From: Thiobacillus sp.
GTDB taxonomy: Bacteria; Pseudomonadota; Gammaproteobacteria; Burkholderiales; Thiobacillaceae
Assembly (NCBI GenBank): GCA_024708885.1
Contig: JANJXT010000034.1
Coordinates: 1-64,000 of the forward strand
Direction: 5' to 3'
DNA: 64,000 nt
Within the stretch, counting starts at the first letter, position 1, and every line of letters begins with the position of its first letter. Below, piece by piece: positions 24,925-59,622 of this stretch. Made by a program: the position numbers and the translations under genes. The notes beneath the pieces are model-generated. The model was not told the DNA's origin and did no database searches. It was given only the letters and a program-made list of their open reading frames with translations.

Positions 24925-24944
24925 TGTCGGAATTTTTTACACCC
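24925..24944 (+). promoter_or_regulatory. PEP-CTERM upstream box 1 (candidate PrsR site)
   Basis: TGTCGGAATTTTTTACACCC matches the box at 58673-58692 in 19 of 20 bases. Its ends form a GTGT/ACAC dyad. It lies 83 bases upstream of the -24 GG of the sigma-54 promoter of the PEP-CTERM gene at 25167. I take it as the enhancer site of PrsR, which is encoded in this window. Confidence 0.7.
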
Positions 24945-25026
24945 GGCCTGAAAGAAAAAACCAGACATACAGACAATCAGATTTATCTTGTTGATAAATC
25001 ACGCATTAAATTTGTCAAGGACGACC

Positions 25027-25043
25027 TGGCACAGCTCATGCTT
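25027..25043 (+). promoter_or_regulatory. Sigma-54 promoter of PEP-CTERM gene 1
   Basis: TGGCACAGCTCATGCTT has GG (25028-25029) and GC (25040-25041) exactly 10 bases apart, the invariant sigma-54 spacing, with TGGCAC at -24. The start codon is 126 bases downstream. Confidence 0.7.
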
Positions 25044-25166: not shown

Positions 25167-25931
25167 ATGAAAAAAACCCTCCTGGCCAGCACACTTGCAG
25201 CCTCGGCCCTGTTCGCTGCAGGGAGCGCGAACGCCACCATTCTCACGGTCTACAACGATTTCACCACCGGTCTTGCCAACTTCAACAGCACCGTGAGCGG
25301 TGCCGGCGGCACGGCCAGCCATGACACCTGGACGAACCTTCCCAGTTCCGCCACCAGCATCAACCGCGGTGATTACGTCGTCACCAAGACCGGCGGCGGC
25401 ACCATGTACAACGAAGGCGTCTATCAGCTGTGGGGCTCTTCTCCGATTGCCTACACGAGCGGTCAAACCATCGGCATCAATCCCGCTGGCTCGCCTGCCC
25501 ATGGCCTCGACGACGGCACCGGCACCAAGAACAGCGGCCTCACCCTGACCTTCGCCAGTGCCATCAACAGCATCGGCTTCGAGGTCGGCGACTGGGCTAC
25601 CTGCTGTCAGATTTCCAACCTCTATATCTCGTTCGACAACAACACCCCCATCATGGTCGGCAACTCCACTGACTATGGTGACGGCTTCCTGACCAACGGC
25701 GGAGCCGGCGTATTCGTCGCCGCCTTCGACGACACCGGTGATTTCCACACGGTGCAGTTCTGGGGCGACGGTATCGGCGAGTACCTGGTCATGGGCGGCA
25801 CGATCCACTACGCCCTGCTGGAGCAGGGCAGCCTGCCGCCCGACAACGGTGTTCCCGAGCCGGCGTCGCTGGCCTTGCTGGGAATTGGCCTGATGGGGCT
25901 GGGTGCCATGCGCCGCCGCAAAACGGCCTGA
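25167..25931 (+). CDS. PEP-CTERM sorting-domain exported protein
   Basis: 254 residues. A signal peptide (MKKTLLASTLAASALFAAGS, cut near ANA) is followed by a Gly/Thr/Asn-rich, probably beta-sheet secreted domain of unknown function with adjacent cysteines at DWATCCQIS. The C-terminal PEP-CTERM tail starts at VPEP (~229): a hydrophobic helix, then RRRK. An exosortase (XrtA) should cut this tail at the membrane and deliver the protein to the surface or matrix. Transcription should come from the sigma-54 promoter upstream, and a strong terminator follows. Confidence 0.92.
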   Translation: MKKTLLASTLAASALFAAGSANATILTVYNDFTTGLANFNSTVSGAGGTASHDTWTNLPSSATSINRGDYVVTKTGGGTMYNEGVYQLWGSSPIAYTSGQTIGINPAGSPAHGLDDGTGTKNSGLTLTFASAINSIGFEVGDWATCCQISNLYISFDNNTPIMVGNSTDYGDGFLTNGGAGVFVAAFDDTGDFHTVQFWGDGIGEYLVMGGTIHYALLEQGSLPPDNGVPEPASLALLGIGLMGLGAMRRRKTA

Positions 25932-25947: not shown

Positions 25948-25979
25948 AAAAAAGCCGACGCCCTGCGTCGGCTTTTTTT
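25948..25979. terminator. Bidirectional intrinsic terminator after PEP-CTERM gene 1
   Basis: AAAAAAGCCGACGC / GCGTCGGCTTTTTTT around a short loop is 17 bases after the stop. A-runs and T-runs on both sides allow termination in either direction. Its stem resembles that of the terminator at 27957-27985. Confidence 0.88.
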
Positions 25980-25980
25980 A

Positions 25981-26100
25981 CACCTGCCGTTTCCGTTCAG
26001 CGCAAACAGCCTTCGTGCTCCGCTTGAACAACACCTGCTGCGCCGCCGCCTCGATGCCGAGACCGCTGGTGTCGATTGCGGGCCGCGGTTCCTGGTGGTT
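25981..26100 (-). pseudogene. Duplicated remnant of the 3' end of an APS-kinase gene
   Basis: The reverse-strand frame reads AIDTSGLGIEAAAQQVLFKR, which aligns with AIDTTDLGIEEAVQQVLLKL at the C-terminus of the sulfurylase/APS-kinase gene at 28005-29636. The DNA is also alike (for example CACCTGCTGC, then CGCC(G/T)CCTCGATGCCGAG), and each copy is preceded by a similar terminator. No start codon or kinase domain remains. It seems to be the leftover of a duplication that now flanks the lipoprotein gene at 26361. Confidence 0.65.
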
Positions 26101-43295: not shown

Positions 43296-43312
43296 TGGCA
43301 TGGAAGATGCTC
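43296..43312 (+). promoter_or_regulatory. Candidate sigma-54 promoter of the EpsB-type sugar transferase
   Basis: TGGCATGGAAGATGCTC has GG (43297-43298) and GC (43309-43310) 10 bases apart, 38 bases before the start at 43348. Unlike the two PEP-CTERM promoters it has no TGTCGG...ACACCC box ~100 bases upstream, so a chance match is possible. Confidence 0.4.
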
Positions 43313-43347: not shown

Positions 43348-44742
43348 GTGATTCGATTCTTCCGGCACTACGTGCCGCTCAACCTGCTGCTGCTGGTGCT
43401 GGTCGAGGCATGCATCCTTGGTGGCGCCATCTATGCCGGCGTCGGCGCGCGCTTCTTCGATGCCAATTCGGTCCCCAGCGGCCTGCAACCGCTGTTGCCC
43501 AAGGCGATCAGCTTTTCGCTGGTCATGATGGGATTGATGACCGCCAGCGGGCTGTACGATCCCGACTGGCAGGGCAGCGTGCGCGCCTTGTTGCAACGCC
43601 TCGGGCTGAGTTTCGGCCTCGGCCTGGTGGCGATGAGCCTGCTGTTCTATTTCTTTCCCGTGCTGCTGGTCGGGCGCGGCGCCTTCGTGCTGGCGTTCGG
43701 GATCGCGCTGGTCGGCATTCTCGCCAGCCGCATCCTGTTCACCCGCTGGGCGCGCACCGCCGCGCTGAAGACGCGCGTGCTGGTGATCGGTACGGGCAGC
43801 CGCGCCGCGCACATCGAGTCGATGCTCGCCCAACGCGGACCCGCCAGCAACATCCAGGTGGTCGGCTACCTGCCGATGGGAGGCAGTCATCATTTCGTCG
43901 ACCATGCGCGCATTCTCGACAGCAACGAATCCCTGCCGGCACTCGCCGCCCGTCTCAACATCGGCGAGATCGTCATCGCCGTGCGCGACCGCCGCGGCGG
44001 CGGCATGCCGGTGCAGCAATTGCTGGAGTGCCGGCTGCGCGGCGTCAACATACTGGAACTGTCGAGCTTTTTCGAGCGCGAGAACGGCCATTTGCAGCTC
44101 GACTCGATGAACGCCAGCTGGATGATCCTGGCCGAGGGCTTCCGCCAGGGCATGCTGCGTGAAACGTTCAAGCGCCTGTTCGACCTGCTCGCCAGCACGA
44201 CGCTGCTCGTGGTCGCCCTGCCCGTCATGACCCTCACGGCGCTCCTCATCAAACTGGAAAGCCCCGGTCCCGTGCTGTACCGGCAGGAACGCGTCGGCCA
44301 GGGCGGCCGCAGCTTCATCATCCTCAAGTTCCGCAGCATGTGCGTCGACGCCGAAAAGGACGGTCGGCCGCGCTGGGCGCACCAGAACGACAGCCGCGTG
44401 ACCCTGGTCGGCCGCTTCATCCGGCGCACGCGCATCGACGAATTGCCGCAGGTGTTCAATGTTTTCTTCGGCGACATGAGCTTCGTCGGCCCACGTCCGG
44501 AACGCCCCTATTTCGTCCAGGACCTGACCCAGAAGATCCCCTATTACGGCGTGCGCCACACCGTCAAACCCGGCATCACCGGCTGGGCGCAGGTGCGCTA
44601 CCCTTACGGTGCGTCCGACGAGGACGCCACGCACAAGCTGCAATACGACCTCTATTACGTAAAGAACCACAGCCTGTTCCTTGATCTCATGATTCTGTTC
44701 CAGACGGTGCAGGTCGTGGTATGGGGCAAGGGCGCCCGTTAG
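43348..44742 (+). CDS. Undecaprenyl-phosphate sugar transferase, PEP-CTERM-associated (EpsB type)
   Basis: 464 residues. Four or five N-terminal membrane helices (~10-135) are followed by a Rossmann-like CoA-binding region (RVLVIGTGSRAAHIESML) and a C-terminal bacterial sugar-transferase domain from ~275: KRLFDLLASTTLLVVALPVM, then LKFRSM and FGDMSFVGPRPERP. This enzyme loads the first sugar-phosphate onto the lipid carrier for exopolysaccharide synthesis. It belongs to the type found next to PEP-CTERM/exosortase genes. prsK follows 62 bases later. Confidence 0.88.
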   Translation: MIRFFRHYVPLNLLLLVLVEACILGGAIYAGVGARFFDANSVPSGLQPLLPKAISFSLVMMGLMTASGLYDPDWQGSVRALLQRLGLSFGLGLVAMSLLFYFFPVLLVGRGAFVLAFGIALVGILASRILFTRWARTAALKTRVLVIGTGSRAAHIESMLAQRGPASNIQVVGYLPMGGSHHFVDHARILDSNESLPALAARLNIGEIVIAVRDRRGGGMPVQQLLECRLRGVNILELSSFFERENGHLQLDSMNASWMILAEGFRQGMLRETFKRLFDLLASTTLLVVALPVMTLTALLIKLESPGPVLYRQERVGQGGRSFIILKFRSMCVDAEKDGRPRWAHQNDSRVTLVGRFIRRTRIDELPQVFNVFFGDMSFVGPRPERPYFVQDLTQKIPYYGVRHTVKPGITGWAQVRYPYGASDEDATHKLQYDLYYVKNHSLFLDLMILFQTVQVVVWGKGAR

Positions 44743-44804: not shown

Positions 44805-46910
44805 ATGAGCGTTAGCGCCGCACCCGTCATGGCCAGCATGCTGCTCCTGCTCGCCGGCGCGGGATATGGGCTGGCAGCGCTTGCCTATCTTGGCCTGTCC
44901 GGACTGATCCTCGCGAGTTGGCGGCGGCGGCCACACGGCCGCCTGCTGCTGGTTGCCAGTCTTTTGTCGGTGGCATGGGGAACGCTCTCCATGCTCACTG
45001 CCTGGGGGCTGCTGCCGGGACGACACGAACTGGTGGTGGAAGTGATGCGCAACGGCGCCTGGCTGGCACTGCTGTTTCACATCGTGCGCCTGCGCCGCCC
45101 CGCCGGCACGCCGTTGCCGGCGCCGCTGCGCACGATCCGCCTCGCGAGCGGCCTGCTCGTCGGCGGACTCCTGCTCGCCGGGCTGCAGCCGTTCCTGCTG
45201 CCCGGCACGCCGGGTCTGCCGCGCAGCCTTGGCCATCTCGGGCTGGTGCTGCTCACCGTGATGGGCCTGGTGCTGGTCGAGCAAGTTTACCGCGGCGCCC
45301 GGCCGGAAGACCGCTGGGCGATCAAGTTCCTCTGCCTCGGCGTCGGCGGCCTGTTCGTCTACGACTTCTATCTGTACGCCAACGCCACCCTGTTCGGCGC
45401 ATTCGACGCCCAGGTGTGGGCGGCGCGCGGCTATGTCGCCGCCCTGGTGGCGCCGCTTGTCGCCGTGTCCGCCGCGCGCAACCCGGACTGGGCGGCACCG
45501 GTCGGCCTGTCGCGCAGCATGGTCTTCCACACCGCAAGCCTGCTCGCCGCCGGCATCTACCTGCTGTTCATGGCCGCTGCCGGCTACTACCTGCGCCTGT
45601 TCGGCGGCGAATGGGGTGACGTGCTGCAAAGCGTGTTCGTGTTCGCCGCCGCACTGCTTCTCGTCCTGCTGATGTTTTCCGGCACGCTGCGCGCGCGCCT
45701 GCGGGTGTTCCTGTCCAAGCATTTTTTCAGCTATCGCTACGACTACCGCGAGGAATGGCTGAAGTTCACCCGCACGCTCGCCGAGGGGCCGTCGGGCGCG
45801 CAATTATGCGAACGCGCCGCCGAGGCGCTGGCGCGGCTGGTCGACAGCCCCGGCGGCGCGCTGTGGCTGCGCGAGGGCAACGCCGGTTACCAGCGTGCCA
45901 GTCACTGGAACTGGAGCGACCTCACCGGCACCGAACCCGTCGACTCGCCCTTCGCGCGCTGGCTCGCCAGCCGCCAGTGGGTGATCGACCTCGACGAACT
46001 GAAGCGGCGTCCGGAATTGTATGGCGAGCTCGCCCCACCCGCCTGGATCCGCGCGGCCGACGCCGCCTGGCTGGTGGTGCCGCTCATGCTGCATGACGAA
46101 CTGCTCGGCTTCGTCGTCCTCAAGCACTCGCTCGGCAAGGTGGCCTACAACTGGGAGGTCGGCGACCTGCTCAAGGTGGCTGCACGCCAGGCGTCGGCCC
46201 ACCTGGCGCAGATGCGCGCCGCCAACCAGCTCATCGTGGCGCGCCAGTTCGAGTCGTTCAACCGCACCACCACCTTCGTCATCCACGACCTGAAGAATCT
46301 CGTCGCCCAGCTCTCGCTCTTGCTCGCCAACGCCGAGAAGCACAAGCACAACCCGGAATTCCAGGCCGACATGCTGGAGACCGTGGCCAATGCAGTGGCG
46401 CGCATGAACAAGGTGCTGGCACAGTTGCGCCGCGACAGCGATACCGCACCGATGCAATCGGTGGCGCTCGCCGAGCTGCTGACCGAGGCCGCTGCCAGCA
46501 AGCAGGCGTTCAAGCTGCGCCCGACGCTGGAACGCCCTCCCGCCACGCTGCACGTGCGCGCCGACCGCGAGCGTCTGGTACGCGCCATCGGCCACCTGCT
46601 GCAGAATGCGCTGGAAGCCACGCCGCCAGGCGGCAGCGTCAGCATGCGTGGTTTCGAACACGACGGCCAGGCGATCGTCGAAATTACCGATACGGGCATC
46701 GGCATGGACGACACCTTCATCCGCACCCGCCTGTTCCAGCCGTTCGATTCGACCAAGGGTGCGGGCATGGGCATCGGTGCCTACGAATGTCGCGAAACCG
46801 TCCGCGCGCTGGGCGGCACGCTCGACGTCGACAGCGCGCCAGGGCGCGGCACCCGCTTTCTCATCAGCCTGCCGCTGGACCATAATGACGTCGGAGGACA
46901 CGCCGCATGA
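44805..46910 (+). CDS. prsK: PEP-CTERM system histidine kinase PrsK
   Basis: 701 residues. About eight membrane helices (residues 10-300) lead into a GAF-like domain (~330-460, SPGGALWLREGNAGYQRASH). The kinase core follows, with FVIHDLKNLVAQLSLLLANA (His ~493), TDTGIGMDD and GAGMGIGAYECRE. This architecture is typical of PrsK, the sensor partnered with PrsR in PEP-CTERM organisms. It overlaps prsR by four bases (ATGA). The signal it senses is unknown. Confidence 0.93.
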   Translation: MSVSAAPVMASMLLLLAGAGYGLAALAYLGLSGLILASWRRRPHGRLLLVASLLSVAWGTLSMLTAWGLLPGRHELVVEVMRNGAWLALLFHIVRLRRPAGTPLPAPLRTIRLASGLLVGGLLLAGLQPFLLPGTPGLPRSLGHLGLVLLTVMGLVLVEQVYRGARPEDRWAIKFLCLGVGGLFVYDFYLYANATLFGAFDAQVWAARGYVAALVAPLVAVSAARNPDWAAPVGLSRSMVFHTASLLAAGIYLLFMAAAGYYLRLFGGEWGDVLQSVFVFAAALLLVLLMFSGTLRARLRVFLSKHFFSYRYDYREEWLKFTRTLAEGPSGAQLCERAAEALARLVDSPGGALWLREGNAGYQRASHWNWSDLTGTEPVDSPFARWLASRQWVIDLDELKRRPELYGELAPPAWIRAADAAWLVVPLMLHDELLGFVVLKHSLGKVAYNWEVGDLLKVAARQASAHLAQMRAANQLIVARQFESFNRTTTFVIHDLKNLVAQLSLLLANAEKHKHNPEFQADMLETVANAVARMNKVLAQLRRDSDTAPMQSVALAELLTEAAASKQAFKLRPTLERPPATLHVRADRERLVRAIGHLLQNALEATPPGGSVSMRGFEHDGQAIVEITDTGIGMDDTFIRTRLFQPFDSTKGAGMGIGAYECRETVRALGGTLDVDSAPGRGTRFLISLPLDHNDVGGHAA

Positions 46911-48259
46911 GCGACGCCAAAGAGAAAATACTGCTGGTCGAGGACGATCCCGGGTTGCAAAAGCAGCTCAAATGGAGCCTCGCCGACTATGAGCTGCTGA
47001 TCGCCGCCGACCGTGACACGGCCATCGCTCAGCTGCGCCGCCACGAACCGTCCGTGGTGCTGCTCGATCTCGGCCTGCCGCCCGACCCCGATGGCGCCAC
47101 CGAAGGCCTCGCCACGCTGCAGCAGATCCTCTCGCTCGCCCCAGCGACGAAGATCATCGTCGTCACCGGCAACCTCGACCGCGCCAACGCGGTGAAGGCG
47201 ATCCACCATGGCGCCTACGATTTCTTTCAGAAACCCTTCGATCCCGACGTGCTCGCGCTGATGATCTCACGCGCCCTGCACGTCCATGCGCTCGAACTGG
47301 AGAACCGGCAGCTCGCGGCGCGTCAGCAGCAATCCCCGCTGTCCGGCGTCATCACCAACAGCGAAGCGATGCTGAAGGCATGCCGTACCGTGGAGAAGGT
47401 CGCGCCAGTCAACGCCACCGTGCTGCTGCTGGGTGAATCCGGCACCGGCAAGGAAGTGCTGGCACGCGGCCTCCACGAACTCTCGCCGCGCGCCGGCAAG
47501 CGTTTCGTCGCCATCAACTGCGCAGCGATCCCCGACACCCTGCTCGAATCCGAGCTGTTCGGCTACGAAAAGGGCGCCTTCACCGGGGCCACCAAGCAGA
47601 CCATCGGCCGCATCGAATATGCCAACGAAGGCACACTGCTTCTCGACGAGATCGGCGATCTGCCGATGCCGTTGCAGGCCAAGCTGCTGCGCTTCCTGCA
47701 GGAGCGCGTGATCGAGCGCCTGGGCGGACGCGGCGAGATTCCGGTCGATGTGCGCGTGGTTTGCGCCACGCACCGCGACCTCGGCGCGATGATCCACAGC
47801 GGCAGTTTCCGCGAGGATCTGTACTACCGTCTGTCGGAAATTACCGTCACCCTCCCGCCGTTGCGCGTGCGCAACGGCGACGCCGTGCTGCTGGCGCGCA
47901 CCTTCCTCGAAACCCAGGCGCGCGCGCTCGGCCGCAAGCTCAAGGGCTTCACGCCCGATGCCTTGAGCGCACTCGAAGCGCATACCTGGCCTGGCAACGT
48001 GCGCGAACTGGAGAACCTCGTCAAGCGCGCCGCCATCATGGCCGACGGCAGCCTGGTCACCGCCGCCGACCTCGGTCTCACCGCGCCGCACACCGAACCG
48101 GCGCCGTTCAATCTCAAACTGGTGCGCGAGGACGCCGAGCGTGCCGCGGTCAGCCGTGCCCTGTCGCACAGCGACGGCAACGTGGCACAAGCCGCGGAGC
48201 TGCTCGGGGTGAGCCGGCCCACGCTGTATGATCTGATGACGAAAATCGGGCTGAAGTGA
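46907..48259 (+). CDS. prsR: PEP-CTERM box sigma-54 response regulator PrsR
   Basis: 450 residues. Receiver (EKILLVEDDPGLQKQL; phosphoacceptor in VVLLDLGLPPDPDG), then an AAA+ activator domain with Walker A GESGTGKE (~175), the sigma-54 contact loop GAFTGA (~223) and LLLDEIGDLP. The C-terminal Fis-type helix-turn-helix is NVAQAAELLGVSRPTLYDLM. An intact GAFTGA means it should activate sigma-54 promoters, two of which precede the PEP-CTERM genes in this window. It pairs with PrsK. Confidence 0.95.
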   Translation: MSDAKEKILLVEDDPGLQKQLKWSLADYELLIAADRDTAIAQLRRHEPSVVLLDLGLPPDPDGATEGLATLQQILSLAPATKIIVVTGNLDRANAVKAIHHGAYDFFQKPFDPDVLALMISRALHVHALELENRQLAARQQQSPLSGVITNSEAMLKACRTVEKVAPVNATVLLLGESGTGKEVLARGLHELSPRAGKRFVAINCAAIPDTLLESELFGYEKGAFTGATKQTIGRIEYANEGTLLLDEIGDLPMPLQAKLLRFLQERVIERLGGRGEIPVDVRVVCATHRDLGAMIHSGSFREDLYYRLSEITVTLPPLRVRNGDAVLLARTFLETQARALGRKLKGFTPDALSALEAHTWPGNVRELENLVKRAAIMADGSLVTAADLGLTAPHTEPAPFNLKLVREDAERAAVSRALSHSDGNVAQAAELLGVSRPTLYDLMTKIGLK

Positions 48260-53034: not shown

Positions 53035-55830
53035 ATGCCCCGTGTTTCGCTGTTTTCCCCGGCCCGGCCCAGGCGACTGCTCGCCGCCCTGCTTCTGGGC
53101 GCAGGACTCACCGCCTGCGGAGCGGGCGAATCGGCCGACACCCTGCTCGCAAAGGCCCGCCAGAGCCTCGACGCCGGAGACGCGAAGGCCGCCATGATCC
53201 ACCTCAAGAGCGCGGTCCAGGCGGACGACAGCAATGCCGAAGCACGCTTCCAGCTCGGCAGACTCCAGTTCGAGGCAGGCAATCTTGCCAGCGCCGAAAA
53301 GGAACTGAAGCGCGCACGCCAGGCCGGTTACGCCGCCGACAAGGTGAATCCGTTGCTGGCCAAGGCCATGCTCGGCCAGGGTGAATTCCAGCGCGTTCTC
53401 GACGAATTGCCGCAACCGACGGCCGACAGCGCGGCGGACGTGCCCCTGCTGGTGGCGCGGGCCACCGCCCAGCTCGGCGCCGATGCGCGCAGCGAAGCCC
53501 GCCAGAGCATCGAACGGGCGTTCGCCCTCGCGCCGCAGGACGTCGAGGTCCTGCTCGCCCAGGCCCGCCTCGCGCTCGCCGAGAAGAATCCCGAGGCGGC
53601 GATGCGCCATGTCGACCAGGCCTTGCAGAACGCGCCGCGCGACCGCGACGCCTCGCTGTTCAAGGCCGATCTGCTGCGCGCCACCGGCAAGCCGACCGAG
53701 GCCGCCAAGGCGTATCAGGCCACCCTGGAAATCGACCCCGGGCACGCCGGCGCGCGCCTGGCGCGGGCCAGCCTCGCCATCGGCGAAAACCGCTTCGACG
53801 ACGCGCGCCGCGACATCGACACCGTGCTCAAGGACGCGCGCGACCACCTGCAGGCCCATTATCTTCTGGCGCTGATCGAATTCCGCGAAGACAAGGTCGA
53901 GGCCGCGCGCGACCGCCTGGCCGGCATCCTCAAATCGGCGCCGGGCTTCACGCCTGCCGTCTCGCTCGCCGCAACGGTCGAGTTCGCGCTGGGCAACCTG
54001 CAAACCGCCGAGGCCTACCTCAACCAGATCGTCAAGGCCGCGCCGCACAACGTCCAGGCACTGCGCCTGCTTGCCGCGACCCAGCTGCGCCTGAATCGCG
54101 TCGACGATGCCGCGCGTACCCTCGCCGGCATTCCCGCGGCGGCCGAGGATGCGGGCTACCACCTCATCGCCGGCGAAGTCGCCCTTGCCAAAAAGAACTT
54201 CGACAAGGCGGCCGGACATTTCGAAACCGCCACGCGCTTGAGCCCCGACAGCGCCGCGCTGCGCACCGAACTGGGCATCGCGCGCCTCGCGCAGGGTGAC
54301 GCGCGCGCCATGGATGACCTGCAGGCTGCCGCCGCGATGGAAGGCAGCGGCGGCCGCGCCGACACCGTCATCATCCTCAAGCAGCTGCAAGCGGAACAAT
54401 TCGACGCCGCGCTCGCCAGCATCACCGCGCTGGAAAAGAAGCAGGGCGCCGACCCGCTCGTCTGGAACTACCGTGGCGCCGCCTACCTGGGCAAGAAGGA
54501 CCGGGCGAAGGCACGCGCGAGCTTCGCGCAGGCGCTCAAGCTCGACCCGAAATTCTTCCCCGCCGCCACCAACCTCGCCCAGCTCGACCTCGCCGACAAG
54601 CAGCCCGACACCGCACGTCAGCGCTTCGAAGCCATTCTCAAGGCCGAGCCCAGGCATCTCAATGCCATGCTCGCGCTGGCCGATCTCGCGCTGCGCGACA
54701 AGGATGAGAAGAACCACGTCGCCTGGCTGGAAAAGGCGATCAAGGCCCAGCCGCAGGCGCTCGAACCCCGGGTCGCCCTCGCCCGCTGGCAGCTCGCCCG
54801 TGGCGACGCCGCCCAGGCGCTGGCGACCGCGCGCGACGCCGCCAACGCCCACCCCGACCATCCCGCCGCCCTGGAAACGCTCGCCACCGCGCAGTTCGCC
54901 ACGGGCGACGCCACCAACGCACAGGGCACCTACCGCAAGCTGGTGGAACGCTCGCCCAGGCCGGCGCTGCCGCTGACCCGCCTGGCAGCGGTGCAGGCGA
55001 GCACCCAGCAGTTCACCGAAGCGCGCAAATCGCTGCAGGACGCCCTGCGTGCGCAGCCCGACCTGCTGGAAGCACAGATGCTGCTCGGCCGCCTCGAACT
55101 CCAGGCCAAGCGCCACGACGACGCCTTCAAGCTCGCCCAACAGATCCAGCAGCAAAAACCCAAATCCTCCGCCGGCCCCCTGCTGGAAGGCGACACCGCC
55201 ATGGCGCAGCAACGCTTCGACGCCGCGCTTGCAGCCTACGAGCGTGCGCACGCCCTCGAACCTTCCGGCGCCTTGCTGTTGCGCCAGCATCAGGCACTCG
55301 CCCGCCTGGGACGCGCCGCAGAAGGCGACAAACGCGTCGTCGCGTGGCTCGCGAATCACCCGCAGGACGCCGAAACCCGCCTCGCGCTCGCCAGCCAGCT
55401 GCTGAACCGCAAGCAATACAAGGCCGCCGCCGAACACTATCTCGTGGTCAACCAGAGCCACCCAGGCAACCTCGTCGTCCTCAACAACCTCGCCTGGGCA
55501 CTCCACGAGACAGGCGACGCCCGCGCCGTCGACTTTGCCGAGCAGGCGCACACACTCAAGCCCGACAATCCCTCGGTGATGGACACGCTGGGCTGGATCC
55601 TGGTGCAACAGGGACAGGCCGATCGCGGTCTCAAGCTCCTGCAACAGGCGCTGTCGAAGCAGCCCGACGCGGCCGAGATCCAGTGGCACCTGGCCGCCGC
55701 CTACGCCAAGAACGGCGACCGCGCACGCGCGAAGAGCGAGCTGGAACGGCTGCTCGCCAGCGGCCTCGCCTTCCCGCAGGAAGCCGAAGCCCGCACGCTG
55801 CTGAGGCAATTGCAGGGTTCGGCACGCTGA
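53035..55830 (+). CDS. prsT: PEP-CTERM system TPR-repeat lipoprotein PrsT
   Basis: 931 residues. The lipoprotein signal ends at LTAC (Cys ~24), followed by some twenty TPR-like helical repeats. The PrsT pattern is clear: an ADTLLAKARQSLDAGDAKAA start, then long Ala-rich repeats, ending in NPSVMDTLGWILVQQGQADR. AGGAG (53019-53023) supports the ATG at 53035; the longer upstream frame is not protein-like. PrsT proteins accompany exosortase systems and probably scaffold export or assembly of matrix proteins or polysaccharide. Confidence 0.9.
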   Translation: MPRVSLFSPARPRRLLAALLLGAGLTACGAGESADTLLAKARQSLDAGDAKAAMIHLKSAVQADDSNAEARFQLGRLQFEAGNLASAEKELKRARQAGYAADKVNPLLAKAMLGQGEFQRVLDELPQPTADSAADVPLLVARATAQLGADARSEARQSIERAFALAPQDVEVLLAQARLALAEKNPEAAMRHVDQALQNAPRDRDASLFKADLLRATGKPTEAAKAYQATLEIDPGHAGARLARASLAIGENRFDDARRDIDTVLKDARDHLQAHYLLALIEFREDKVEAARDRLAGILKSAPGFTPAVSLAATVEFALGNLQTAEAYLNQIVKAAPHNVQALRLLAATQLRLNRVDDAARTLAGIPAAAEDAGYHLIAGEVALAKKNFDKAAGHFETATRLSPDSAALRTELGIARLAQGDARAMDDLQAAAAMEGSGGRADTVIILKQLQAEQFDAALASITALEKKQGADPLVWNYRGAAYLGKKDRAKARASFAQALKLDPKFFPAATNLAQLDLADKQPDTARQRFEAILKAEPRHLNAMLALADLALRDKDEKNHVAWLEKAIKAQPQALEPRVALARWQLARGDAAQALATARDAANAHPDHPAALETLATAQFATGDATNAQGTYRKLVERSPRPALPLTRLAAVQASTQQFTEARKSLQDALRAQPDLLEAQMLLGRLELQAKRHDDAFKLAQQIQQQKPKSSAGPLLEGDTAMAQQRFDAALAAYERAHALEPSGALLLRQHQALARLGRAAEGDKRVVAWLANHPQDAETRLALASQLLNRKQYKAAAEHYLVVNQSHPGNLVVLNNLAWALHETGDARAVDFAEQAHTLKPDNPSVMDTLGWILVQQGQADRGLKLLQQALSKQPDAAEIQWHLAAAYAKNGDRARAKSELERLLASGLAFPQEAEARTLLRQLQGSAR

Positions 55831-55865: not shown

Positions 55866-58643
55866 ATGATCAAACCCCCTGTCGTCCTGGCCCTGGCCCT
55901 CGCCCTGGCCACCGCGCCGGCACTCACTGGATGCGACCGCAGCGCCCGGCTGACGGAGCAGGAACACATCCAGCGTGCCAAGGATTTCGAGGACAAGGGC
56001 GACGTGAGGGGCAGCATCATCGAACTCAAAAACGCCATCCAGAAGAACCCCGACAGCCCCCAAGCCCGCATGTTGCTGGGCCAGGTGTATCTCAAGGCCG
56101 GTTCCGGCGCCGAGGCGGAAAAGGAGTTGCTACGGGCGCAGCAGCTGGGCATCAGTCGCGACAGCCTCGCCCCTCAGCTTGGCGAGGCACTCCTGCTCAT
56201 GGGCGAGTATCAGCGCCTGCTCGACGAGATCCAGACCACTGACAAGCTCTCGCCCGTCAATCAGGCGCGCATCCTTGCCCTGCGCGCGAATGCCATGCTC
56301 GCGCAGGGCAAGGTACGCGAGGCCTGCGATCTGTTCCAGAATGCGCAGGCTGTCGACTCCAGCCACCCGTCCGCCTACTGGGGGCTCGCAATGTGCGCAA
56401 TCGGCGAACGGGATATCGCCCAAGCCAGATCGCTGCTCGATGACGCCCTGAAGCTTCCGCAGCAGCAAAGCCAGACCTGGGTGTACATCGGAGACCTGGA
56501 GCAGTTGAATGGATCGGACGAGGCTGCGCTGAACGCCTACGACAGCGCACTCAAGCTCGATCCCGAAAATCTCCAGGCACGCTATAACCGCGTACCGGCC
56601 CTGCTCCGAACCGGCAAAACCGATGCTGCCGCCAAGGAAATCGCGCACCTGCGCGAGCGCGCGCCCAGCCTCGCCCAGACGCATTACCTCGCAGCCCTGC
56701 TGGCCTTCTCGCAAGGGAAATTTCCCGAATCGCGTGATGCGCTGCAGCAGGCCTTCAAGTTCATGCCCGATCACGCCCCCAGCCTGATGCTCGCTGCCAT
56801 GACGTCGCACGCGCTCGGGTCGTATCAGCAGGCCGAAACCCAGATCGGCCGCTTCCTTGCCCGCTTCCCCGGCAACAAACAGGGGATCAAGGTGCTGGCC
56901 GCCACGCAAATCCACCTGAAACAGCCTGACAAGGCGCTCGACACCCTTGCTCCACTGCTTGCCGCCGATCCCAGGGATGCCGAGGCCCTTGCCCTGGCGG
57001 GCGAAGCCAGCCTGCTTCGAAAAGACCCCAACCGCGCAGTCCCCTATCTGGCCAGTGCGGCGCTACTCGACCCGGGAAATGCCTCGTTGCAGACCCAGTT
57101 GAGCCTCGGCTACCTTGCAGCTGGCAATACGCAGCTCGGCATCAGCGGCCTGCAGGCCGCATCGGCCGGAAATGCCGCCCAAACCGATGCCGACTTGCTG
57201 CTCGTGCGCGCTCATGTGTCCCGCAAGGAGTTCGACCAGGCGCTTGCAGCGATCGACGTCCTGGAAAAGAAACAGCCGAACAGCCCGCAACCCCACCAAC
57301 TTCGAGGCGCCGTCCTGGTCGGCCAGGGGAAATATGGCGCGGCGCGCCAAAGCTTCGAACGCGCACTCGCGATGGACCCGGTCTATTTCCCGGCAGCCAA
57401 CGGCCTCGCCGAACTGGACATGCGCGACAACAAGCCGGAGGCAGCGCGACAGCGCTTTGAGCGGATCCTGGCCAAGGAGAAGACCCACCTGCAGGCGATG
57501 CTCGCCATGGCGCAATGGTCGAGAATCAACAAGCAGGACAAGGCCTATCTCGACTGGCTGGACAAGGCGGCGCGCGCCCACCCCAAGGCCATTGAGCCGC
57601 GTGCGGCGCTTGTCAGCGACCTGCTCTCGAAAGGCGACAGGCACAAGGCGCTCGTGCTCGCCAACGAGGTGGCCAACACCCACCCCGAGGATCCCGTGGC
57701 CCTGAATCTGCTCGGCAACGTGCAAATGTCGCTCCAGGACTTCCCCGGCGCACTCAGCACCTTCACCAAGCTCGTCCGCGCAGCGCCGCAATCCACTGAT
57801 GCCCATATGCGCCTGGCGTTCGCCGAGATCGCCTCGAAACGCAACAAGGACGCCCGCGCGACCCTACAAACGGTGCTCAAGCTCAAGCCCGACCACATCC
57901 AGGCACAGGACGCCATGCTGCGGCTTGCCATTGAGGACAACCGGCTGGACGAGGCCATGCGGATCGCGCGCCAGCTTCAGACGCAGCATCCGGACGCCCC
58001 GATAGGCCATGAGCGCGAAGGCGATGTCCTCATTCTGCAAAAACATCCCGACACCGCCTTGAAGGCATACGAGCAGGCATTGGCCAAAGGCAGCGGGTCG
58101 GCCGGCTTCATCAAGGTCCACCGCGCCCTCGCCCTGTCCGGCAATCCGGCCGCCCAGCAACGTCTCGACAACTGGCTTGCCCAGCACCCGAAGGACAACG
58201 TCGTGCGGCACTACGCGGCGGAGCACTACGCGCGGACCGGCCGCCCCCAGCAAGCCATTGCGGCTTACGAGACCCTGATCCGCGAAGCCCCCGATTCCGC
58301 ACTCATGCTGAACAACCTGGCCGGCCTTTATCAACAGGTGGGAGACAAGCGCGCCCTGGCCACGGCGGAGCGAGCGCACAGGCTCGCCCCCGACAACCCC
58401 GCCGTGCTCGACACCCTGGGCTGGACGCTGGTGGAGCAGGGACAGACCGCACGCGGGATCGACCTGCTGCAGCAGGCCCGCGCCAAGGCGCCCAAAGTCC
58501 CTGAAATCCGCTACCACCTCGCTGCGGCGTGGGCGCGCAATGGCGACAAGGCGCGCGCGCGGCAGGCGCTTCAACAATTGCTGCAGGAGGAACCGGACTT
58601 TTCTCTGGCCCCCGCGGCACGCGCTTTACTCAAGGAACTCTAG
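55866..58643 (+). CDS. Second PrsT-type TPR-repeat lipoprotein
   Basis: 925 residues. The lipoprotein signal ends at LTGC (Cys ~22). The TPR-repeat layout and length closely match the upstream PrsT: EHIQRAKDFEDKGDVRGSII aligns with its start, and NPAVLDTLGWTLVEQGQTAR with its end. The gene starts 35 bases after prsT on the same strand. The pair is a diverged tandem duplication. It precedes PEP-CTERM gene 2. Confidence 0.88.
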   Translation: MIKPPVVLALALALATAPALTGCDRSARLTEQEHIQRAKDFEDKGDVRGSIIELKNAIQKNPDSPQARMLLGQVYLKAGSGAEAEKELLRAQQLGISRDSLAPQLGEALLLMGEYQRLLDEIQTTDKLSPVNQARILALRANAMLAQGKVREACDLFQNAQAVDSSHPSAYWGLAMCAIGERDIAQARSLLDDALKLPQQQSQTWVYIGDLEQLNGSDEAALNAYDSALKLDPENLQARYNRVPALLRTGKTDAAAKEIAHLRERAPSLAQTHYLAALLAFSQGKFPESRDALQQAFKFMPDHAPSLMLAAMTSHALGSYQQAETQIGRFLARFPGNKQGIKVLAATQIHLKQPDKALDTLAPLLAADPRDAEALALAGEASLLRKDPNRAVPYLASAALLDPGNASLQTQLSLGYLAAGNTQLGISGLQAASAGNAAQTDADLLLVRAHVSRKEFDQALAAIDVLEKKQPNSPQPHQLRGAVLVGQGKYGAARQSFERALAMDPVYFPAANGLAELDMRDNKPEAARQRFERILAKEKTHLQAMLAMAQWSRINKQDKAYLDWLDKAARAHPKAIEPRAALVSDLLSKGDRHKALVLANEVANTHPEDPVALNLLGNVQMSLQDFPGALSTFTKLVRAAPQSTDAHMRLAFAEIASKRNKDARATLQTVLKLKPDHIQAQDAMLRLAIEDNRLDEAMRIARQLQTQHPDAPIGHEREGDVLILQKHPDTALKAYEQALAKGSGSAGFIKVHRALALSGNPAAQQRLDNWLAQHPKDNVVRHYAAEHYARTGRPQQAIAAYETLIREAPDSALMLNNLAGLYQQVGDKRALATAERAHRLAPDNPAVLDTLGWTLVEQGQTARGIDLLQQARAKAPKVPEIRYHLAAAWARNGDKARARQALQQLLQEEPDFSLAPAARALLKEL

Positions 58644-58672
58644 CCCGGCGGCACTCACCCCCAGTCAGGCAC

Positions 58673-58692
58673 TGTCGGATTTTTTTACACCC
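58673..58692 (+). promoter_or_regulatory. PEP-CTERM upstream box 2 (candidate PrsR site)
   Basis: TGTCGGATTTTTTTACACCC differs from box 1 (24925-24944) at one base only. It lies 84 bases before the -24 GG of the sigma-54 promoter at 58776, against 83 bases for box 1. Confidence 0.7.
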
Positions 58693-58775
58693 AGGCGAGT
58701 TTTACGTCGGGGCGCCACGCCAACGATCCATGTTTTTCACATTAATTCAACAACATATAAAGCCTGCTTTACCCC

Positions 58776-58793
58776 TGGCATGGCGATTGCTTT
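58776..58793 (+). promoter_or_regulatory. Sigma-54 promoter of PEP-CTERM gene 2
   Basis: TGGCATGGCGATTGCTTT is close to the sigma-54 consensus TGGCACG-N4-TTGCW. GG (58777-58778) and GC (58789-58790) are 10 bases apart. The start codon is 92 bases downstream. Confidence 0.8.
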
Positions 58794-58881
58794 GATTATT
58801 GCATGACCGGAACTTTTGCGAATCACGAGCCATCCCGGTTTGAGAGCTACACGTACATTTAACGAATCAAGGAGTTCAATC

Positions 58882-59622
58882 ATGAAAATGACCACACTGG
58901 CATCCAGCCTGCTCGTCGCAGGTTCGCTGTCCCTGGCTTCGGCTGGCGCGCATGCCTACACGGTTGCCGGCGTCAGCTGGGACCAAAACAGCATTCTTGA
59001 CTTCAGCGCCCAGTCCTCCCTGTGGGAGAGCATCGCGACTACGGCCGGCCAGTCGTTTGGCGGCTATGGTCGCTTCACGACCATGAACGGTGACTTCAAT
59101 TTCTGCTCCGGATGCGAACTGACCTTTGTGTTCGCTGACTACGTCCAGCAGACCAACCTGACCGGAACCGTTGGCGAAGCCTTTAACGCCACGGGCGGCA
59201 CCATCAAGGTCTACGTGGACCACACCCCGAACTTCAATCCGGCCAACCCCGCCACGGCGTCCGACGGTCTGTTGTGGCTCGATCTGGTTGGCTTCGACGC
59301 CCTGGGCACCGGCTACACCCTCACCGGCAACATCACCGGCGTCAGCGTCGCGGGCCTGACCGGCCAGGGCACCGGCTTCCTGAATGTCGTGGACGGTCTT
59401 GCCAAGTCCTACTTCGACACCGACGGCCAGCTCGGAGGCGCAGACTTCCTCTACACCTCCAGCTTCCAGCCGATTATTCAGGGCCAGATTGCCCCCGGCA
59501 TCACCCACCTCGGCACGGCCGAGATCACCGGAACGTCGGTTCCCGAGCCCGCCACCCTGGCGCTTCTGGGCCTGGGTCTGATTGGTCTTGGCTTGGCCCG
59601 CCGTTCCAAGAAAGCTGCCTGA
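58882..59622 (+). CDS. PEP-CTERM sorting-domain exported protein
   Basis: 246 residues. A signal peptide (cut near AHAYT) precedes a beta-rich secreted domain with one cysteine pair (FCSGCELTF). The PEP-CTERM tail begins at VPEP (~220): a hydrophobic helix, then RRSKK. AAGGAG (58869-58874) fixes the ATG at 58882. Like the protein at 25167 it should be sorted by exosortase XrtA and switched on by PrsK-PrsR. The mature function is unknown. Confidence 0.93.
   Translation: MKMTTLASSLLVAGSLSLASAGAHAYTVAGVSWDQNSILDFSAQSSLWESIATTAGQSFGGYGRFTTMNGDFNFCSGCELTFVFADYVQQTNLTGTVGEAFNATGGTIKVYVDHTPNFNPANPATASDGLLWLDLVGFDALGTGYTLTGNITGVSVAGLTGQGTGFLNVVDGLAKSYFDTDGQLGGADFLYTSSFQPIIQGQIAPGITHLGTAEITGTSVPEPATLALLGLGLIGLGLARRSKKAA

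Follow-up and report, generated by a model that had tools for sequence, protein, structure and literature searches.

The window, by which we mean the whole stretch of 64,000 nucleotides of Thiobacillus sp. DNA analysed here, carries two PEP-CTERM genes, each preceded by a short box and a predicted sigma-54 promoter, and between them a group of PEP-CTERM system genes (Table 1). The PrsR protein encoded there comprises a receiver, a sigma-54 AAA+ and a Fis-type HTH domain and contains the GAFTGA motif, and the nearest named PrsR that we found, from a Thiobacillus MAG, is 82% identical to it. Profile searches thus bear out what an earlier note had read from the letters of this DNA, namely prsK, prsR with GAFTGA, and two PEP-CTERM genes. 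PepA-like gene 2 reaches 66.5 bits with NF033554, under the cut-off of 80. Box 2 lies directly downstream of the second prsT gene, and a third prsT paralogue of the host (C20:5263-7951) also ends just before a boxed PEP-CTERM gene, in the same prsT-box-PEP-CTERM order as seen at 55866-59622 of the window. The host rpoN gene lies on contig C42 and two exosortase genes lie on C57 and C66.

Table 1. Boxes, promoters, PEP-CTERM genes and PEP-CTERM system genes of the window
Feature	Coordinates	Strand	Details
Box 1 (Haft motif 1, predicted PrsR site)	24925..24944	+	20-mer TGTCGGAATTTTTTACACCC
Box 1, 17-nt core	24925-24941	+	TGTCGGAATTTTTTACA
Predicted sigma-54 promoter 1	25027..25042	+	TGGCACAGCTCATGCT, score 10/11
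PEP-CTERM gene 1	25167..25931	+	254 aa, tail VPEPASLALLGIGLMGLGAMRRRKTA; over TIGR02595 and PF07589 cut-offs
Gene 1 terminator hairpin	25948..25982	+	z -5.4; 3' side and T-run box-like (CGTCGGCTTTTTTTACA)
epsB2-type XrtA/PEP-CTERM system glycosyltransferase	43348..44742	+	TIGR03013, 560 bits
prsK, PEP-CTERM system histidine kinase	44805..46910	+	TIGR02916, 891 bits, cut-off 300
prsR, PEP-CTERM-box response regulator, NtrC type	46907..48259	+	TIGR02915, 740.3 bits, cut-off 502.6
prsT paralogue, upstream of second prsT	53071..55755 (profile-match extent)	+	TIGR02917, 927 bits
prsT, TPR lipoprotein	55866..58643	+	TIGR02917, 809 bits; ATG 55866, lipobox-like LTGC
Box 2	58673..58692	+	20-mer TGTCGGATTTTTTTACACCC; core 58673-58689 TGTCGGATTTTTTTACA
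Predicted sigma-54 promoter 2	58776..58791	+	TGGCATGGCGATTGCT, score 10/11
PEP-CTERM gene 2	58882..59622	+	246 aa, PepA-like; over TIGR02595 and PF07589 cut-offs

Promoters were scored as matches out of 11 against the sigma-54 consensus TGGCAC-N5-TTGCW. In promoter 1 the GG occupies 25028-25029 and the GC 25040-25041 (25027-25043 reads TGGCACAGCTCATGCTT), at a gap of 83 nt from the 20-mer or, counted from the 17-nt core to TGG, 85 nt, and the start codon of gene 1 follows 125 nt past the GC. Promoter 2, which from 58776 reads TGGCATGGCGATTGCTT with its GG at 58777, has corresponding gaps of 84 and 86 nt and a start codon 91 nt past the GC. The coordinates that the earlier note had given for the first pair are therefore exact, as are the 19/20 box identity and 84-nt gap that it had given for the second. 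At up to 3 mismatches the window contains three matches to the 20-mer, whereas 100 dinucleotide shuffles gave a mean of 0.00. Because bare GG-N10-GC occurs 1384 times on both strands of the window and only 18 of these matches score at least 9, GG-N10-GC alone means little, and it is a box together with a good promoter that counts. The third 20-mer match, at 25966 with 3 mismatches, coincides with the stem and T-run of the gene 1 terminator and has no promoter of score ≥9 within 260 nt; it is unlikely to be a third PrsR site and probably does not serve the next gene as one. This terminator ends in the box-like CGTCGGC-T7-ACA, and the same 17-mer is found 38 nt past the stop codon in the related locus L074. 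Further downstream, a sigma-54-like match at 43296-43311 (TGGCATGGAAGATGCT, 9/11) stands 36 nt ahead of epsB2 and has no box upstream of it; it may belong to another activator or be due to chance. Autoregulation of the epsB2-prsK-prsR cluster is unsupported, the best box-like match upstream of it having 8 mismatches.

The pairs correspond to an element described by Haft et al. in 2006 (PMC1569441), in which a 17-nt motif 1 ending in TTTACA is followed by a sigma-54 motif 2 at a mean spacing of 62.8 nt (SD 10.6, range 32-92), which precedes 99 of 167 proteobacterial PEP-CTERM genes, for which PrsR is the predicted activator, and for which a repeated motif 1 was also noted. Both window boxes have 17-nt cores ending in TTTACA, the non-coding DNA upstream of genes 1 and 2 (296 and 238 nt) exceeds the 200 nt of Haft et al., and the gaps of 85 and 86 nt are within the published range and above the published mean. 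The large intergenic region, the downstream sigma-54 motif, the single-gene PEP-CTERM targets and a host genome carrying PrsK, PrsR and PrsT are likewise common to both, and Table 1 of that paper lists Thiobacillus denitrificans, probably close kin of the host, with two prsT loci numbered beside prsR and prsK. Since the link between motif and PrsR was published in 2006 (PMC1569441), the finding in the window is a correct rediscovery. In Aquincola tertiaricarbonis, pepA has a mapped start with a -24/-12 promoter, RpoN1-dependent transcription and a predicted enhancer upstream (2023, PMC9850573); like window gene 2 it adjoins prsT, but it lies upstream of prsT whereas window gene 2 lies downstream (PMC9850573).

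We then scanned the host assembly (2.56 Mb in 67 contigs, 84% complete), labelling genes from profile matches only, with the 17-nt core (TGT...ACA) at up to 3 mismatches, which gave 13 matches versus 0 for the reversed control. Seven of the 13 precede seven of the ten host PEP-CTERM genes over the TIGR02595 cut-off, each with a GG-N10-GC scoring 9 to 11 of 11, and the association that the earlier note had proposed to look for genome-wide is thus non-random. Two others precede other genes with a promoter scoring 9 or 10 (C36:40683, before a GGDEF protein; C39:43065, before a probably exported protein), two lie just past PEP-CTERM genes (C12:25966, 35 nt after the stop; C1:26565, 6 nt), and two, on C16 and C43, are without a promoter of score ≥9 and look like chance. 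The box-like sequence at C1:26565 is absent from the relative L126. A box after PEP-CTERM genes is not the rule, as only 7 of 125 genes in the site sets A and B described below, labelled by an ad hoc tail pattern, have one at up to 3 mismatches within 250 nt past the stop, one of them on the opposite strand, and some of these may belong to the next gene. Nor does a box precede every PEP-CTERM gene. Three of the ten host genes are without their own, which counts against control by PrsR: those on C22 and C50, upstream of which no box was found (best matches ≥6 mismatches), and C59:12190, which is the second gene of a tandem. The earlier note had also placed prsK, prsR, both sites and both targets in one 35-kb segment. 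These parts are indeed present, but the segment is not a closed regulatory unit, because other contigs carry five boxed PEP-CTERM genes, two boxed genes of other kinds, rpoN and the exosortase genes, and box and good promoter occur together on seven of these contigs (C1, C20, C36, C37, C39, C59 and C67). The window pair belongs to a genome-wide regulon.

The relation between box and regulator was assessed in 399 genomes of the order, with box presence defined as a match at up to 1 mismatch and PrsR presence as TIGR02915 over cut-off. Eighty-one genomes are box-positive and 100 PrsR-positive, and PrsR is present in 58 of the 81 box-positive versus 42 of the 318 box-negative genomes (odds ratio 16.6, Fisher p 3e-24, without correction for phylogeny), so that 144 of 177 box matches fall in PrsR-positive genomes. 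Counting against PrsR are the 23 box-positive genomes without PrsR over cut-off and the 42 PrsR-positive genomes without a box at up to 1 mismatch. By our reading, three of the former (G163, G087 and G117) show truncated high-scoring fragments, and, given 14 chance matches of a reversed-core control in the 399 genomes (our count from the table), chance can explain part of the remainder. Genome G203 (97% complete; set B loci L209-L213) has 7 boxes, several before PEP-CTERM-like genes. Neither PrsR over cut-off nor a truncated high-scoring fragment was found in it, which also counts against PrsR. Co-occurrence across the order and the published work together support the proposal of the earlier note that the box is the predicted PrsR site.

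For the analysis of spacing and orientation we assembled three sets of sites. Set A comprises all 114 sites from 60 genomes including the host; most are from the genus, and 10 come from five genomes that belong to other families. Set B comprises 112 distinct sites of at least 156 outside the genus and set A, from the order-wide search matches listed, including 9 that come from a second genus in the family. Set C comprises 76 of the 121 sites found outside the order, all 76 of them within the class. The sites of sets B and C were chosen with a preference for genomes carrying several boxes, and set C was used without clustering by relatedness. Downstream genes in the locus tables were labelled by an ad hoc PEP-CTERM tail pattern that errs both ways, having missed true tails in L036, L160 and L247 and picked wrong frames in the diguanylate-cyclase loci L058, L076 and L105. 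A promoter of score ≥9 lies downstream of 79 of the 114 boxes in set A (2.5 expected from shuffles) and of 57 of the 112 in set B (1.8 expected). The boxes without such a promoter at 20-140 nt (35/114 in A, 55/112 in B, 50/76 in C) count against a general pairing, with 19, 16 and 22 of them, respectively, standing before PEP-CTERM-like frames by the rough pattern; the explanation is either that the promoter is sometimes weak or far away, or that some of the boxes arose by chance.

The distance between box and promoter varies in steps of about 11.2 bp, and the phase is the same in all three taxon sets. When gaps are counted between the last base of the 17-nt core and the T of TGG, they group around 41, 52, 63, 75, 86, 97, 107 and 118 nt. 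At a promoter score of ≥8 (101 sites) set A has no gap in 54-61, 65-72, 78-82 or 89-92, and sets B and C have a few gaps in these ranges (58, 61, 65, 69, 72, 81 and 82). Periodicity statistics were computed only from sites with promoter score ≥9 (n=79, 57 and 26 for A, B and C), and gaps <35 nt were dropped from the cluster, grid and bootstrap analyses. Over periods of 9.5-12.5 bp the Rayleigh R peaks at 0.85 (A) and 0.79 (B), and it is 0.69 in set C, the phases at a period of 11.2 bp being 7.3, 6.7 and 6.7 for A, B and C; in 20,000 trials with gaps jittered by up to 5.6 bp, R stayed at or below 0.38 in A and 0.45 in B. The best period is 11.18 bp (bootstrap 95% 11.04-11.34, n=104). Set B alone peaks at 11.0 (R 0.79) and still has R 0.72 at 10.5; its period is thus less sharply determined, which counts against the reading favoured below. 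With grid period and phase fixed from set A, which is therefore not independent of its own fit as B and C are, 34 of 35 first cluster members in A (15.6 expected), 39 of 43 in B (19.2 expected) and 24 of 26 unclustered sites in C (11.6 expected) fall within 2.5 bp of the grid, the outliers being 88 (A), 82, 58, 82 and 105 (B) and 81 and 69 (C). All nine host-genome sites are ≤1.7 bp off the grid. Spacings at multiples of a helical repeat, as characterise helically phased sigma-54 enhancers, are thus found here, and a period closer to 11 than to 10.5 fits the value of about 11 bp per turn given for E. coli DNA in loops (PMC8501960).

The two halves of the box, an imperfect dyad (TGT...ACA), differ from each other, which makes polarity physically reasonable, and the orientation of the box is nearly invariant. 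Among 146 boxes from sets A and B, the test being confined to boxes with 160 nt on both sides and thereby leaving out most of the fetched set B, a promoter of score ≥9 lies downstream in the forward sense in 95 and in the reverse sense in 1, this one also having a forward promoter. Set C adds 13 forward and 1 reverse among 37 boxes, which brings all sets together to 108 forward and 2 reversed. Extra boxes up to 260 nt upstream of a promoter are forward in 13 cases (2.0 expected), about half of them in orthologous promoters, and reversed in 0 (0.6 expected). Tandem boxes about 55 to 212 nt apart before one PEP-CTERM gene occur in L084, L101, L212, L363, L366, L367 and L376. A classical enhancer is independent of orientation and distance; in their natural distribution, which is distinct from their function, the boxes do not occur freely in both orientations.

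Targets other than PEP-CTERM genes recur. A diguanylate cyclase gene has the box at up to 1 mismatch in 17 of 36 genomes of the genus, with a promoter score of 9 in 16 of these and 8 in one, while the box of the host copy has 3 mismatches. The 18 diguanylate cyclases, host copy included, share 79-100% identity with the L138 protein across 441-482 residues, and PF00990 is present in those that were scanned (L032 and L138). When their 18 promoters are aligned, box and promoter are kept, with a divergent spacer of near-constant length that is about 11 nt shorter in the host and one relative. Locus L227, of another family, has a 40%-identical diguanylate cyclase with a box and no GG-N10-GC at 20-140 nt downstream of it. 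Short GGDEF-like matches (55-92 residues; 38-51% identity to the diguanylate cyclase of L138) occur in the boxed loci L158, L161, L331 and L342 and are cut by locus ends or derive from other proteins. In L069, L184, L186, L210 and L232 the gene after the box encodes a Sel1-SLT lytic transglycosylase (domains scanned in L184 and L232), the first four proteins being 56-85% identical to that of L232; a promoter of score ≥9 is present in three of the five loci (L184, L210 and L232). In host locus L033 and in L098, L103, L145, L173, L224, L238, L241 and L245, the box is followed by a protein that carries an RR motif close to its start and often also GYWK or GYWG, at 27-53% identity to the L238 protein; 7 of the 9 loci have a promoter score ≥9, L173 and L224 being without. 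Six of these GYWK-type proteins were scanned and gave no Pfam match; their RR motif suggests that they are probably exported. A recurrent frame, MGxALLNFLPGxMTFExYF..., lies about 54-114 nt past good boxes in L167, L244, L347, L348 and L393, none of which has a sigma-54 promoter of score ≥9. In the open-access literature, mostly at the level of title and start of abstract, we found no report of a diguanylate cyclase, transglycosylase or GYWK protein as a PrsR target.

Starting from what is directly observed (the sites and their statistics, their spacing and polarity, the targets and the co-occurrence with PrsR), the reading that we favour, at a probability of roughly nine in ten, is that the box is the PrsR binding site and GG-N10-GC a sigma-54 promoter, together forming a PrsK/PrsR looping switch. 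PrsK would sense a signal and phosphorylate PrsR, which would oligomerise on the box. The short intervening DNA would bend into a loop, bringing the GAFTGA loops of the PrsR AAA+ ring into contact with sigma-54 polymerase at -24/-12, whereupon the promoter would be opened by ATP hydrolysis. Because the loop would be only about 40-120 bp long, a fixed helix face and a one-way, asymmetric box are to be expected. Predicted outputs are exosortase-sorted PEP-CTERM surface proteins and, outside the window, a diguanylate cyclase, through which c-di-GMP may become an output of the switch, and the GYWK-type, probably exported protein.

It is very unlikely, in our estimate, that another NtrC-type activator binds the box and PrsR merely travels along with it. 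The host does have other NtrC-like candidates (41 at first look for G000, only 4 of them scored), and the seven boxes of G203 are found without PrsR over cut-off; the co-occurrence of the box with TIGR02915 over cut-off across 399 genomes points the other way. Desulfovibrio vulgaris belongs to a lineage distant from the host. Its DVUA0057, a PEP-CTERM regulator of PrsR type predicted by Haft et al., enriched its five predicted targets in a DAP-chip experiment, the binding-site motif being given as not validated in the figure legend (Rajeev 2011, PMC3333781), and the published phylogenetic profile also ties PrsR to the element (PMC1569441).

Inheritance of the spacing pattern from a few ancestral promoters, without any constraint from the helix, appears very unlikely. 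Some orthologous groups share one spacing, as do 16 diguanylate-cyclase promoters at 50-53 nt, and spacings within a cluster are not always whole turns apart (76/101, 63/105). They are, however, often about one to two turns apart (63-64/75, 85/63, 97/118, 42/62, 72/82), R remains 0.79 when one site is taken per similarity cluster (135 sites, 78 clusters), and period and phase are the same outside the genus and, in the unclustered set C, outside the order. That box and promoter are unrelated conserved pieces, for instance of a repeat element carrying both, would fit the occasional tandem boxes and the box-like sequences after some PEP-CTERM genes; we consider it scarcely credible, in view of a diguanylate-cyclase box and promoter that are kept in 17 genomes while the spacer diverges at constant length, and of the spacers of the two window promoters, which are unlike each other.

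Helical phasing of natural sigma-54 enhancers has a precedent in 61 LuxO-dependent qrr enhancers of Vibrio, whose loop lengths of about 80-120 bp are clustered about 11 bp apart (PMC4740811). The qrr case concerns one genus, one small-RNA family and tandem LuxO sites (PMC4740811), whereas the PrsR boxes are mostly single sites before many unrelated genes in many bacterial families, at spacings of about 41 to 118 nt and with polarity tested. The phasing reported here is a larger and taxonomically wider case of this known principle. In the accessible text of Haft et al. (PMC1569441) targets other than PEP-CTERM genes are not named and spacing is given only as mean, SD and range; the present analysis adds helical quantisation, polarity and, as targets, the diguanylate cyclase, transglycosylase and GYWK protein. 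Neither polarity nor phasing at PEP-CTERM promoters was found in the open-access literature, mostly title and start of abstract, which is weak evidence of absence.

Taken alone, the window site is an ordinary case of a published system and mainly confirms annotation. More than 150 natural box-promoter pairs show a sigma-54 activator site to be constrained in helix phase as well as in orientation, so that sites can be predicted more sharply, and the targets other than PEP-CTERM genes (diguanylate cyclase, lytic transglycosylase and GYWK-type protein) make the question of control by PrsK/PrsR directly testable. We think it likely, if with some reserve, that PrsR-dependent promoters constitute a polar, helically phase-locked enhancer class, in which throughout the bacterial class the asymmetric box has a single orientation and lies at distances from the -24/-12 that vary in steps of about 11.2 bp, and that the same switch drives the diguanylate cyclase. 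If so, the output of surface proteins would be coupled to c-di-GMP via the diguanylate cyclase, and evolution would have recorded the helical repeat of looped DNA in living cells.
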